Source: Rhodothermus sp. (GTDB taxonomy: Bacteria; Bacteroidota; Rhodothermia; Rhodothermales; Rhodothermaceae). Taken from it: a stretch of DNA of 64,000 nucleotides. This document shows, piece after piece, positions 919 through 4,350 of this stretch. A program made the translations under genes and the position numbers. Positions within the stretch are counted from its first letter, which is position 1, and each line of letters begins with the position of its first letter. The DNA lies in contig JAUZRN010000004.1 of NCBI GenBank assembly GCA_030950375.1, positions 1 through 64,000 of the forward strand. Direction: 5' to 3'. The notes beneath the pieces are model-generated. The model was not told the origin of the DNA. It saw only the letters and a program-made list of their open reading frames with translations, and searched no databases.

Positions 919-940
919 ATTGGGCTAACAGGCTTTGTTT

Positions 941-1894
941 ATGCTTATCGAGTCGATTCGGGAAATAGCTGACACGCGCTCGGACACCAGCACCGAGCTG
1001 ATCCGCGCCATCGGGCACACGCCACTGATTCGGCTGTGGCGGATTACGCGTCACCTTCCAGAAACCGTGGCCGTCTACGTCAAAGCCGAGCACCTGAACC
1101 CTGGTGGCTCGGTGAAAGACCGACCGGCCCTCCGTATGGTGCTCGAAGGCCTGCGAAGCGGCGCCCTCCGTGAAGGACGGGTGCTTGTCGACGCCACCAG
1201 TGGCAATACCGGCATCGCCTATGCCATGTTGGGCGCGGCGCTCGGCTTCCCGGTGATGCTGGCCATGCCAGCAAACGCCTCACCGGAACGTAAGCGTATG
1301 CTGAAAGCCTACGGCGCCGAACTCGTTCTGACAGATCCCATGGAAGGCACCGACGGCGCCCAGCGCTACGTGCGGGAGCTGGTGCAACAGGATCCGGATC
1401 GCTACTTCTACCCCGATCAGTACAACAACGACGCCAACTGGCGGGCTCACTATGAAGGTACCGGTGTGGAGATCCTGGAGCAGACGAGAGGGCGCGTCAC
1501 GCACTTTGTAGCTGGACTGGGCACAACCGGCACATTTGTCGGCGTCAGTCGGCGGCTGAAGACCCACAATCCAGCCATCCGTTGCTATGCGCTCCAGCCC
1601 GACTCGCCACTGCATGGCCTGGAAGGGCTCAAACATCTGGAAACGGCCATCGTCCCGGGCATCTACGATCCTTCGCTGGTTGATGAGCATCTGACCTGCT
1701 CGACTGAAGAGGCCTTTGAGGTGACCCGACGGCTGGCCCGCGAAGAAGGGCTGTTCGTCGGACCTTCATCCGGGGCCAATGTAGCAGCAGCCCTGCGCAT
1801 TGCCGAGCAACTGGAACAGGGCGTGGTGGTCACCATCCTGTGCGATACCGGCGCCCGCTACCTGAGCGAATCATTCTGGGAAGAAACGCTATGA
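941..1894 (+). CDS. cysM: Cysteine synthase, CysM-like (thiocarboxylate-dependent type by context)
   Basis: This 317-residue protein is a fold-type II PLP enzyme. Lys59 in GGSVKDRPA is the expected Schiff-base lysine. TSGNTG binds the substrate carboxylate, GLGTTGTF binds the PLP phosphate, and PSSGAN lies near the PLP ring nitrogen. The C-terminus (DTGARYLSE) matches the CysM group. Such enzymes replace the leaving group of O-acetylserine or O-phosphoserine with a sulfur donor. The next genes encode a JAMM peptidase and a sulfur-carrier protein, so the donor is probably the carrier thiocarboxylate rather than free sulfide, as shown for mycobacterial CysM. The ATG at 941 is preferred to a TTG two codons earlier. 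The stop overlaps the next start by four bases (ATGA). Which serine ester is used cannot be told. Confidence 0.93.
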   Translation: MLIESIREIADTRSDTSTELIRAIGHTPLIRLWRITRHLPETVAVYVKAEHLNPGGSVKDRPALRMVLEGLRSGALREGRVLVDATSGNTGIAYAMLGAALGFPVMLAMPANASPERKRMLKAYGAELVLTDPMEGTDGAQRYVRELVQQDPDRYFYPDQYNNDANWRAHYEGTGVEILEQTRGRVTHFVAGLGTTGTFVGVSRRLKTHNPAIRCYALQPDSPLHGLEGLKHLETAIVPGIYDPSLVDEHLTCSTEEAFEVTRRLAREEGLFVGPSSGANVAAALRIAEQLEQGVVVTILCDTGARYLSESFWEETL

Positions 1895-2337
1895 AAATCA
1901 AAGCTTCCTTACTGGCCCAGATCCGGGCCCATGGTGAGGCCACCTACCCTGAAGAGTGCTGTGGACTGCTGCTGGGCAAAAACGGTCCAGACGGCAATCA
2001 TGTCCTGGCCCTCTATCCGGTAGTTAACCGTCATACCGAACAGCGCGAGCGGCGCTACACGATTGCCCCATCCGATTACCTGGCTGCTGAGCGGGCTGCC
2101 CGCCAGCAGGGACTTGAGGTTGTAGGCTTCTATCATTCCCATCCCGATCATCCAGCCCGGCCCTCGGCCACCGATCTGGCCGAAGCCACTTTTCCGGGCT
2201 ACACCTATGTGATTGTTGCTGTGCATCGGGGCCAGGCCGGCGAACTCACCGCCTGGCATCTGACGCCCGACCGCACCCGATTCGAAGCCGAATCCATTGA
2301 AATAGAACCTGAAACAACCTCCGTCGATCAAACCTGA
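1891..2337 (+). CDS. JAMM/MPN+ metallopeptidase (Mec/QbsD-like)
   Basis: This 148-residue protein carries the complete zinc JAMM motif: an acidic residue in PEECCG (Glu21/Glu22), His82 and His84 in HSHPDHP, Ser92 and Asp95. Bacterial stand-alone proteins of this family work with ThiS/MoaD-like sulfur carriers. Mycobacterial Mec removes cysteine from CysO, and QbsD trims a two-residue tail from QbsE. Here the neighbouring carrier ends in Gly-Gly-His-Phe, so two tasks are plausible: trimming HF to expose Gly-Gly, and releasing the newly made cysteine from the carrier. It starts inside the cysM stop codon, so translation is probably coupled. Family assignment is firm; substrate is inferred from context. 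Confidence 0.92.
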   Translation: MKIKASLLAQIRAHGEATYPEECCGLLLGKNGPDGNHVLALYPVVNRHTEQRERRYTIAPSDYLAAERAARQQGLEVVGFYHSHPDHPARPSATDLAEATFPGYTYVIVAVHRGQAGELTAWHLTPDRTRFEAESIEIEPETTSVDQT

Positions 2338-2345
2338 GCAACAAC

Positions 2346-2642
2346 ATGCGTACGACGACCGCTACCGTGACGATTCGGATTCCCACACCCCTGCGTGGTT
2401 TTACCAACAATCAAGCAGTCGTTGAAGTACAGGGCGCTACGGTGGGCGAAGCGTTGCAGCAATTGGTCGCGCAGTTTCCGCGGCTGAAGCCGCACTTGTT
2501 CAACGAGGAGGGACGCTTGCGTTCGTTTGTCAATATCTATCTGGGTGACGAAGACGTCCGCTATCTGCAACGTGAAGCAACGCCCCTGCAGCCGGGCGCC
2601 GAGCTTTCCATTGTACCTTCGGTTGCCGGTGGACACTTTTAA
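2346..2642 (+). CDS. ThiS/MoaD-family sulfur carrier with GGHF tail (CysO-like)
   Basis: This small 98-residue protein has a ubiquitin-like beta-grasp pattern: strand TVTIRIPTPLR, helix GEALQQLVAQFPRL, and the late segment ELSIVPSVAGG. In this family the C-terminal Gly-Gly is adenylated by a MoeB/ThiF enzyme and converted to a thiocarboxylate. Here two more residues, His97 and Phe98, follow Gly95-Gly96, so the encoded form cannot be activated until they are removed. The JAMM peptidase encoded just upstream is the obvious candidate. Location between cysM, the JAMM gene and a MoeB-rhodanese gene points to a role in cysteine synthesis rather than molybdopterin or thiamine, though a second role cannot be excluded. 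The stop lies 18 bases before the next gene. Confidence 0.9.
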   Translation: MRTTTATVTIRIPTPLRGFTNNQAVVEVQGATVGEALQQLVAQFPRLKPHLFNEEGRLRSFVNIYLGDEDVRYLQREATPLQPGAELSIVPSVAGGHF

Positions 2643-2660: not shown

Positions 2661-3845
2661 ATGGCTGTAACCACTGCCGATATTACGCTGACGCCCGAGG
2701 AACTCCGGCGCTACAGCCGCCATCTGATCCTGCCCGAAGTGGGCCTGGAAGGCCAGAAAAAGCTAAAGGCCGCTTCGGTGTTGCTGGTCGGTGCTGGTGG
2801 CTTGGGCTCGCCCCTGGCGCTGTATCTGGCAGCCGCGGGCGTAGGCCGTCTGGGGCTTGTCGACTTCGACGTGGTCGATGAAACGAACCTGCAGCGGCAG
2901 GTACTGCACGGCACCAAAGACGTCGGACGGCCCAAGCTGGAATCAGCGCGGGACCGCATCCTCGACATCAACCCCTACGTGCAGGTTGACCTCTACGAAA
3001 CGCGGCTGACCAGCGAAAATGCCTTGGATATTATCAAGGAATACGACCTGGTAGCCGACGGGACCGACAACTTCCCGACGCGTTACCTGGTCAATGATGC
3101 CTGCGTCCTGGCGGGCAAGCCCAACGTTTATGCTTCGATCTTTCGGTTCGAGGGCCAGGTGTCAGTCTTCGGCACACCCGATGGGCCGTGCTACCGATGC
3201 CTTTATCCGGAGCCGCCTCCACCGGGACTGGTTCCTTCTTGCGCCGAAGGGGGCGTGCTGGGCGTGCTACCGGGCCTGGTCGGCACTATTCAGGCTACTG
3301 AGGTTATCAAGATGATCCTTGGGATCGGTACGCCACTTATTGGCCGGCTGCTGCTTATCGATGCACTGCACATGCAGTTCCGCACCCTGAAGGTGCGAAA
3401 GAATCCCGACTGCCCGATCTGCGGTGAACATCGCACAATCCACGAATTGATTGATTATGAACAATTCTGCGGCCTGCCTTCCCGAAATGGTGAAACGGCC
3501 ACCCAGTCGGCCGAAAGTGCAGTGCCTGAGATCACCGTACACGAACTCAAAGCTCGCCTGGAACGCGGCGATCGACCGATCATCCTGGATGTGCGTAAGC
3601 CCTATGAGGTGCAGATTGCCAGCATTGGACACGACGTACTGATTCCGGTTGACGAATTGTCGGAACGGCTTGCCGAACTGGAGCCGTACCGTGATCGGGA
3701 GATCGTCGTCTATTGCCGATCGGGCGCTCGATCGGCTCAGGCCACCAAGCTGCTCCGCGAAGCAGGCTTTCGGGACGTGAAAAACCTGAAAGGTGGTATT
3801 CTGGCCTGGAGTCAGGAAATCGATCCCAGCGTCCCCCAGTACTGA
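2661..3845 (+). CDS. MoeB/ThiF-type adenylyltransferase with rhodanese domain (MoeZ-like)
   Basis: Of 394 residues, the first 270 form an E1-like adenylating domain: ATP-binding GAGGLGSPLALYLA, then DFDVVDETNLQRQ, ADGTDNFPTRY, zinc-binding CYRC and CPIC pairs, and the conserved Cys194 in VPSCAEGG. A linker of about 30 residues leads to a rhodanese domain (about 285-394) with the active loop CRSGAR at Cys352. The N-terminal domain should adenylate the carrier Gly-Gly end, and the rhodanese persulfide should supply the sulfur, so one protein makes the thiocarboxylate. Mycobacterial MoeZ does both steps for CysO. It is the last gene of the cysteine operon and is followed by a terminator. Paralogues elsewhere could share this work for other carriers. 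Confidence 0.93.
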   Translation: MAVTTADITLTPEELRRYSRHLILPEVGLEGQKKLKAASVLLVGAGGLGSPLALYLAAAGVGRLGLVDFDVVDETNLQRQVLHGTKDVGRPKLESARDRILDINPYVQVDLYETRLTSENALDIIKEYDLVADGTDNFPTRYLVNDACVLAGKPNVYASIFRFEGQVSVFGTPDGPCYRCLYPEPPPPGLVPSCAEGGVLGVLPGLVGTIQATEVIKMILGIGTPLIGRLLLIDALHMQFRTLKVRKNPDCPICGEHRTIHELIDYEQFCGLPSRNGETATQSAESAVPEITVHELKARLERGDRPIILDVRKPYEVQIASIGHDVLIPVDELSERLAELEPYRDREIVVYCRSGARSAQATKLLREAGFRDVKNLKGGILAWSQEIDPSVPQY

Positions 3846-3866: not shown

Positions 3867-3894
3867 GCCCGGTCGCTCAAGCGGCCGGGCTTTT
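3867..3894 (+). terminator. Intrinsic terminator after the cysteine operon
   Basis: GCCCGG and GCCGGGC arms around a short loop are followed by TTTTCTGTT. The hairpin lies 21 bases after the MoeZ-like stop and overlaps the 3' end of the convergent DCC-family gene. Confidence 0.75.
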
Positions 3895-4350
3895 CTGTTG
3901 CGTTTCGGCGGCAGTCCCTACCGGCGAATCCAGAAAACGAGCCAGCAGGTCCGGTGTAGGCACCCGACACTGCTCCCGACGTCCGAACCAGCGATAGCGA
4001 TTCCGGGCAATCCAGCGATACACGGCATCACGTAACGGTCGCGGCACCACAATCAGTCCATAAAGCAGTGGCCAGGGCCCTTTTAACCGTCGTAAAATGC
4101 GCAGTGCTGCCGTCGAATCCCGGTAGCAACGATCGTTTTCGATCAACACAATGCTGTCCATGTAGTCCGGTTGGAGTCCCAGACGTTCCAGGTACGGCCG
4201 TGCGGCCTCAGACTGCAGGGCCCCAAACTTGAAGTAGCCGGCTGGATCTCGATCCATGATAAAGTTGACAAACCCGTTGCACAGGTTGCACACCCCGTCA
4301 AACAGAACAATGCCATGTCGTGCCTTCTCAGGCGAACGCTGCGCCTTCAT
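3877..4350 (-). CDS. DCC-family thiol-disulfide oxidoreductase-like protein (DUF393)
   Basis: This 157-residue protein has the family signature FDGVCNLCN near residue 18, giving the Asp-x-x-Cys-x-x-Cys arrangement from which the DCC family is named. The later AALRILRRL and YRWIARNRYRWFG segments also fit the family. The CxxC pair suggests a redox role in the cytoplasm, but no substrate is established for the family. The start overlaps the stop of the patatin gene by four bases, so the two are co-translated. The 3' end runs into the terminator of the convergent cysteine operon. Confidence 0.88.
   Translation of the reverse strand: MKAQRSPEKARHGIVLFDGVCNLCNGFVNFIMDRDPAGYFKFGALQSEAARPYLERLGLQPDYMDSIVLIENDRCYRDSTAALRILRRLKGPWPLLYGLIVVPRPLRDAVYRWIARNRYRWFGRREQCRVPTPDLLARFLDSPVGTAAETQQKSPAA

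Follow-up and report, generated by a model that had tools for sequence, protein, structure and literature searches.

The window, that is, the whole stretch of 64,000 nucleotides analysed, was found to contain a tight operon with the gene order cysM-type PALP enzyme, JAMM, sulfur carrier and E1-rhodanese (Table 1), which probably encodes a cysteine pathway of the CysO type, with a single JAMM that would trim the carrier and later free the cysteine. The carrier ORF was found to be intact from its ATG start to its stop codon, with the C-terminus LSIVPSVAGGHF and SVAGGHF as the C-terminal residues. The Pfam ThiS match spans carrier residues 10-96, and the PDB matches to M. tuberculosis CysO (3dwg_C, 2.5e-14) and to archaeal SAMP1 also stop at residue 96; the HF residues are therefore two residues past the di-glycine. 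Another PDB match was the Thermus 'MoaD related protein' (1v8c, 4e-17), a chain of 168 aa that reads GGGF at the di-glycine site and runs on. The carrier of another genome of the same genus (G006) was 98% identical and was found to contain the GGHF end as well. The sequence-only reading had placed the end of the carrier two residues beyond Gly-Gly, and this was confirmed by the ORF, the ends of the matches and G006. A sequencing slip or artefact was rejected as the source of GGHF, as two genomes contain it and tails recur widely.

Table 1. Features of the operon, with positions in the window
Feature	Position	Strand	Evidence
CysM/CysK-type PLP enzyme (PALP family)	935..1894	+	Pfam PALP 2.5e-76
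JAMM/MPN+ metallopeptidase, 148 aa	1891..2337	+	Pfam Prok-JAB 3.2e-29
JAMM active-site motif HSHPDHPARPSATD (H-x-H-x7-S-x2-D)	2134..2175	+	motif; pattern in 97/97 orthologues
ThiS/MoaD/CysO-like sulfur carrier, 98 aa, C-terminus GGHF	2346..2642	+	Pfam ThiS 3.1e-13
Di-glycine codons Gly95-Gly96, GGT GGA	2628..2633	+	sequence, alignment
Cap codons His97-Phe98, CAC TTT, past the di-glycine	2634..2639	+	sequence; common to G006
Carrier stop codon TAA	2640-2642	+	
MoeB/MoeZ-type E1 adenylyltransferase fused to rhodanese	2661..3845	+	Pfam ThiF 1.6e-87, Rhodanese 9e-18

For the PALP enzyme, the ATG at 941 was considered a likelier start than the TTG at 935, and the protein scored 380.7 bits against TIGR01138 cysM, below the cut-off of 394.2, and 351.7 against TIGR01136 cysKM, above the cut-off of 344.15. 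The ATG of the JAMM overlaps the PALP stop codon (ATGA), followed by a gap of 8 bases between the JAMM stop and the carrier and of 18 bases between the carrier and the E1-rhodanese. The active site of the JAMM was found to be intact, with H-S-H-x7-S-x2-D and Glu22, and its nearest solved relative in the PDB comparison was 2kcq. The E1 contained the motifs GAGGLG and CYRC...CPIC and the rhodanese contained the loop CRSGARS; many orthologues escaped the regular expressions used for the rhodanese loop and for the glutamate motif of the JAMM. A DCC1-like thiol-disulfide oxidoreductase gene (window 3877-4350, - strand) was found to converge on the end of the operon.

All four gene types of the mycobacterial cysteine pathway MoeZR/CysO/CysM/Mec+ (PMC3227635) were found to be present here, namely a CysO-like carrier, which matches CysO 3dwg_C, a cysteine synthase, a JAMM and a MoeZ-type E1. 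CysO ends with GG (PMC3227635), whereas the carrier described here ends with GGHF. For the individual catalytic steps we infer the following order. The carrier would be translated with HF past the di-glycine, and the co-encoded JAMM would cut after Gly96 to expose the GG end. The E1-rhodanese would then adenylate Gly96, and sulfur from the rhodanese persulfide would replace the AMP. The PALP enzyme would join the thiocarboxylate of the carrier to an activated serine, possibly O-phosphoserine, followed by hydrolysis of the carrier-cysteine adduct by the same JAMM, which would free the cysteine and regenerate the GG carrier.

A set of 116 distinct orthologous carriers was assembled from a genome-collection scan, a phylum search and the set of the order. 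The GG was found in 116/116, which is partly built in because one of the two scan patterns demanded AGG; this has no bearing on the residues following GG. Tails of 1-31 residues were found in 66 carriers, in-frame E1-rhodanese fusions in 39, and a bare GG in 11, so that something past GG was contained in 105/116 carriers overall and in 16/25 JAMM partners within the order. All seven genomes of the genus were tailed, with HF (2), RL (3), GL (1) and KSR (1). Elsewhere in the order, this operon was found with R, RG, RA, AVVARF, a bare GG, or an in-frame carrier-E1-rhodanese fusion. In two fusion-bearing genomes (loci L048 and L049), a search beside the carrier revealed no cysM-type gene; at nearly all other loci of the order, and across phyla, such a gene was present in the operon.

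The carrier-E1-rhodanese fusions were found in several phyla with a variable linker after GG (loci L048, L049, L069-L071, L149, L150, L152-L157, L159, L160, L162 and L163 among others). In an uncultured proteobacterium (L108, 3233-4279), the JAMM and the carrier were found in one open frame with no stop between them. The JAMM-carrier frames of L042, L050 and the upstream part of L048 were rejected as fusions, being overlapping open frames. One carrier copy (G010:C78; L014, L043) contained an internal in-frame TAG in a genome that is 77% complete, which may be an assembly error.

ThiS, MoaD and sulfite-reductase-linked carriers of the same order were taken as controls, with rows L225, L235 and L236 left out for offset errors, and 88/88 distinct controls were found to stop exactly at GG. 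Tails or fusions were thus confined to the JAMM partners within the order (16/25, counted by hand, vs 0/88 controls; Fisher 1.8e-13), the controls being of a different subfamily, as essentially no orthologues without a JAMM were found to serve instead; chance was rejected as the source of the tail on this comparison. The carrier and a strong JAMM were found together in 24/25 genomes of the order, and none of the carrier-free genomes contained a strong JAMM. In the remaining genome, G010 (77% complete), the contig starts with the carrier. Tails without a JAMM were likewise rejected: of 22 genomes without a detected neighbouring JAMM, 21 carry one elsewhere, with only a weak match at a contig edge in G330, and the single genome without one elsewhere was G332, which may be incomplete.

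The tails had a median of 2 residues, and 47 distinct tails were found among the 66 tailed carriers, for which reason HF or any other motif was rejected as a conserved signal. Turnover of the tail was fast: at least 56 changes in tail identity were counted on the tree, which has few columns and is poorly resolved, and in 113 close pairs, whose core was 90% identical, the full tail was shared by 16% of the pairs and the first tail residue by 40%. A tail of three residues or fewer was found in 79% of cases, vs 9% for the first stops in the two other frames (median 2 vs 19). Tails are thus far shorter than random stop spacing, and their length is therefore somewhat constrained and not purely neutral.

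The first residue past GG was D, E or P in 0/105 carriers, vs 23/92 one position later; this grouping was post hoc, chosen after the counts at the first position had been seen. With one carrier per 80% cluster the counts were about 0/55 vs 11/47 (p ~1e-4), and in the fusions alone 0/39 vs 18/39 at the next position. Mutated TGA stops could be behind part of the bias towards R/G/S/C. The fusions need not be stop-derived, yet the avoidance of D/E/P is present in them. Such a restriction would be the expected imprint of a protease that cuts after GG with preferences for the first residue.

The neighbouring JAMM had been proposed in the sequence-only reading to unmask the carrier, and the comparison lends support to this: the JAMM is likely the trimming protease because its site is intact, it co-occurs with the carrier, tails are found only on its partner, and in relatives the carrier is fused in frame to E1, which would demand a cut after GG. 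The fusions are the strongest argument for trimming that the sequences offer, since a cut after GG would be needed for a free Gly if the carrier works as the known ones do. The second role of the JAMM, the putative release of cysteine, follows from the CysO/CysM/Mec+ precedent. Because the JAMM would remove any sequence located after GG, there would be little selection on where the stop codon falls, and near-any short tail, even an E1 fusion, would therefore be tolerated. The presence of a JAMM does not force a tail, as the bare GG carriers indicate. Whether JAMM-partnered CysO-like carriers of several phyla are routinely pro-proteins, made either with a short near-sequence-free cap limited by first-residue specificity or as carrier-E1-rhodanese polyproteins, so that JAMM maturation would be obligatory for most of them in parallel to the eukaryotic ubiquitin precursors, was judged to be evenly balanced.

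The same reading had further taken the cap for an extra control step, with the capped carrier as an inactive store and JAMM activity gating entry into the sulfur cycle. The excess of capped or fused carriers over bare GG, the shortness of the tails and the retention of a tail throughout the genus speak for such a control, which is nevertheless unlikely. The tail sequence is unconserved, tails vary freely from HF to KSR within one genus and from 0 to 31 residues in length across the carriers, several lineages with the same operon contain a bare GG, CysO works with a bare GG (PMC3227635), and the JAMM would be needed in every round anyway if cysteine release is its job. Carriers ending in GG had been expected to be missing from close relatives, which stood for the genus and failed elsewhere in the order, where they are present. 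Since almost any short tail appears to work in the relatives, the cap is more probably a tolerated extra than a dedicated switch for control; a regulatory role of the tail is probably absent.

It is improbable that a different, general peptidase removes the cap and the JAMM only releases cysteine. The JAMM is kept with bare GG carriers, and release alone could explain its presence there, but tails are found only on the JAMM partner and on none of the 88 controls, which face the same peptidases, and QbsD (PMC6006322) and DRJAMM (PMC8832034) provide precedents for trimming. There is also little likelihood that the carrier mainly serves another acceptor, such as tRNA thiolation, molybdopterin or protein conjugation, with the JAMM as a deconjugase and the neighbouring cysM not as its partner. 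The carrier scored 59.4 against SAMP1, just under the cut-off of 60, and the JAMM 101 against the desampylase cut-off of 130; several carriers are probably served by one E1, and the cysM-type gene is missing beside the carrier at L048 and L049. However, that gene belongs to the operon at nearly all other loci of the order and across phyla, this genome has distinct genes for MoaD and for ThiS, and CysO is among the closest solved relatives. Trimming and release by one JAMM in a cysteine pathway was hence preferred to these readings.

In Wolinella succinogenes, the JAMM HcyD reportedly removes a C-terminal cap from HcyS-Ala and also releases the amino-acid product (said to be the work of Krishnamoorthy and Begley, 2011), and if so, dual use of one JAMM would not be new. 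HcyS/HcyD is said to make homocysteine with MetY, whereas cysteine would be made here with a CysM-type enzyme. Salinibacter ruber is a relative belonging to the Rhodothermota. It is listed by Iyer, Burroughs and Aravind (2006) under class 4c, with ThiS/MoaD, E1-rhodanese, JAB and cysteine synthase, the same four genes as in this operon (PMC1779556). The class 4c passages of that account mention neither cap residues nor the fusions between carrier and E1-rhodanese seen in the present set, and the account suggests that a JAB could free a fused carrier (PMC1779556). The operon class had accordingly been tabulated in 2006 (PMC1779556), and capped carriers that need a protease were known as well (PMC6006322). 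QbsE/QbsD, rightly cited in the sequence-only reading as a precedent for a capped carrier with a JAMM, and PtmS2 (cap MV) with the JAMM PtmS1 of Streptomyces platensis (PMC6006322) contain residues past GG and an unmasking JAMM; here likewise a carrier with residues past the di-glycine was found with a co-encoded JAMM of intact motif. Those two systems feed thiocarboxylic natural products (thioquinolobactin for QbsE/QbsD), whereas the partner here is a cysteine synthase. DRJAMM of Deinococcus radiodurans cleaves the MoaD-MoaE fusion, leaving a C-terminal Gly (PMC8832034), and so exposes the carrier Gly by removing what follows, as proposed here, with MoaE as the fusion partner and molybdopterin as the product.

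The literature searched, which lay mostly outside subscription journals, was not found to describe short, near-sequence-free tails that occur only on JAMM partners, the restriction at the first residue, or how often the carrier is fused to E1-rhodanese. If the proposal is true, free tail variation on JAMM-partner carriers would be a sequence-only sign of carriers needing proteolytic maturation, the carrier-E1 fusions would be a bacterial counterpart to the processing of ubiquitin precursors, and a thermophilic lineage without detectable CysE would depend on a carrier that resembles ubiquitin and is matured by a JAMM.

The genome (G000, genus Rhodothermus, 3.03 Mb, 99.6% complete) was found to contain six PALP proteins, and only that of the operon was of the cysteine-synthase type; the other five were hydroxyaspartate ammonia-lyase-like (one), threonine synthases (two) and TrpB-type (two), with no CysK, CysM or CBS. 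No CysE above the cut-off was found in the profile search of the genome, where the best match was the truncated end of an apparent other acyltransferase at a contig edge. Within the order, a CysE-like protein was found in 1/25 carrier genomes vs 7/35 others, which was not significant (p=0.12). The PALP enzyme contains Lys233 at the position of Arg220 of M. tuberculosis CysM, where E. coli CysM also contains Arg; Lys233 would be compatible with O-phosphoserine and is not diagnostic. The missing CysE and this Lys are the two observations that faintly hint at O-phosphoserine as the substrate. Two MetY-type OAH/OAS sulfhydrylases and two cystathionine-synthase/lyase-type proteins were also found, so the operon is the likely, not proven, main route to cysteine, another being possible via the MetY-type enzymes.

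Five ThiS-family carriers, one E1 and one clear JAMM were found in this genome. The tail was present only on the JAMM-partner carrier, and the other four carriers end exactly with GG. The E1-rhodanese of the operon is the only ThiF/MoeB-family protein of the genome and therefore probably serves all five carriers. ThiS adjoins a ThiG-like gene and ends with RQGG, whereas MoaD adjoins a MoaE-like gene and ends with VSGG. A lone carrier of 88 aa ending with PPQAGG (G000:C1 23383-23559; L005 1498-1764, - strand) adjoins an acetamidase/formamidase-like gene and has no obvious partner. A C-terminal carrier domain ending with MAMSGG was found on a 678-aa sulfite/nitrite reductase-like protein (G000:C10 ~76546-78582; L055 747-2783), followed by a CysH-like reductase (L055 2804-3616). 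This arrangement suggests that sulfide may be handed straight to the carrier end, and a similar fusion in actinobacteria is noted in a passage of PMC1779556. A similar long-frame carrier was found in 7/7 genomes of the genus.
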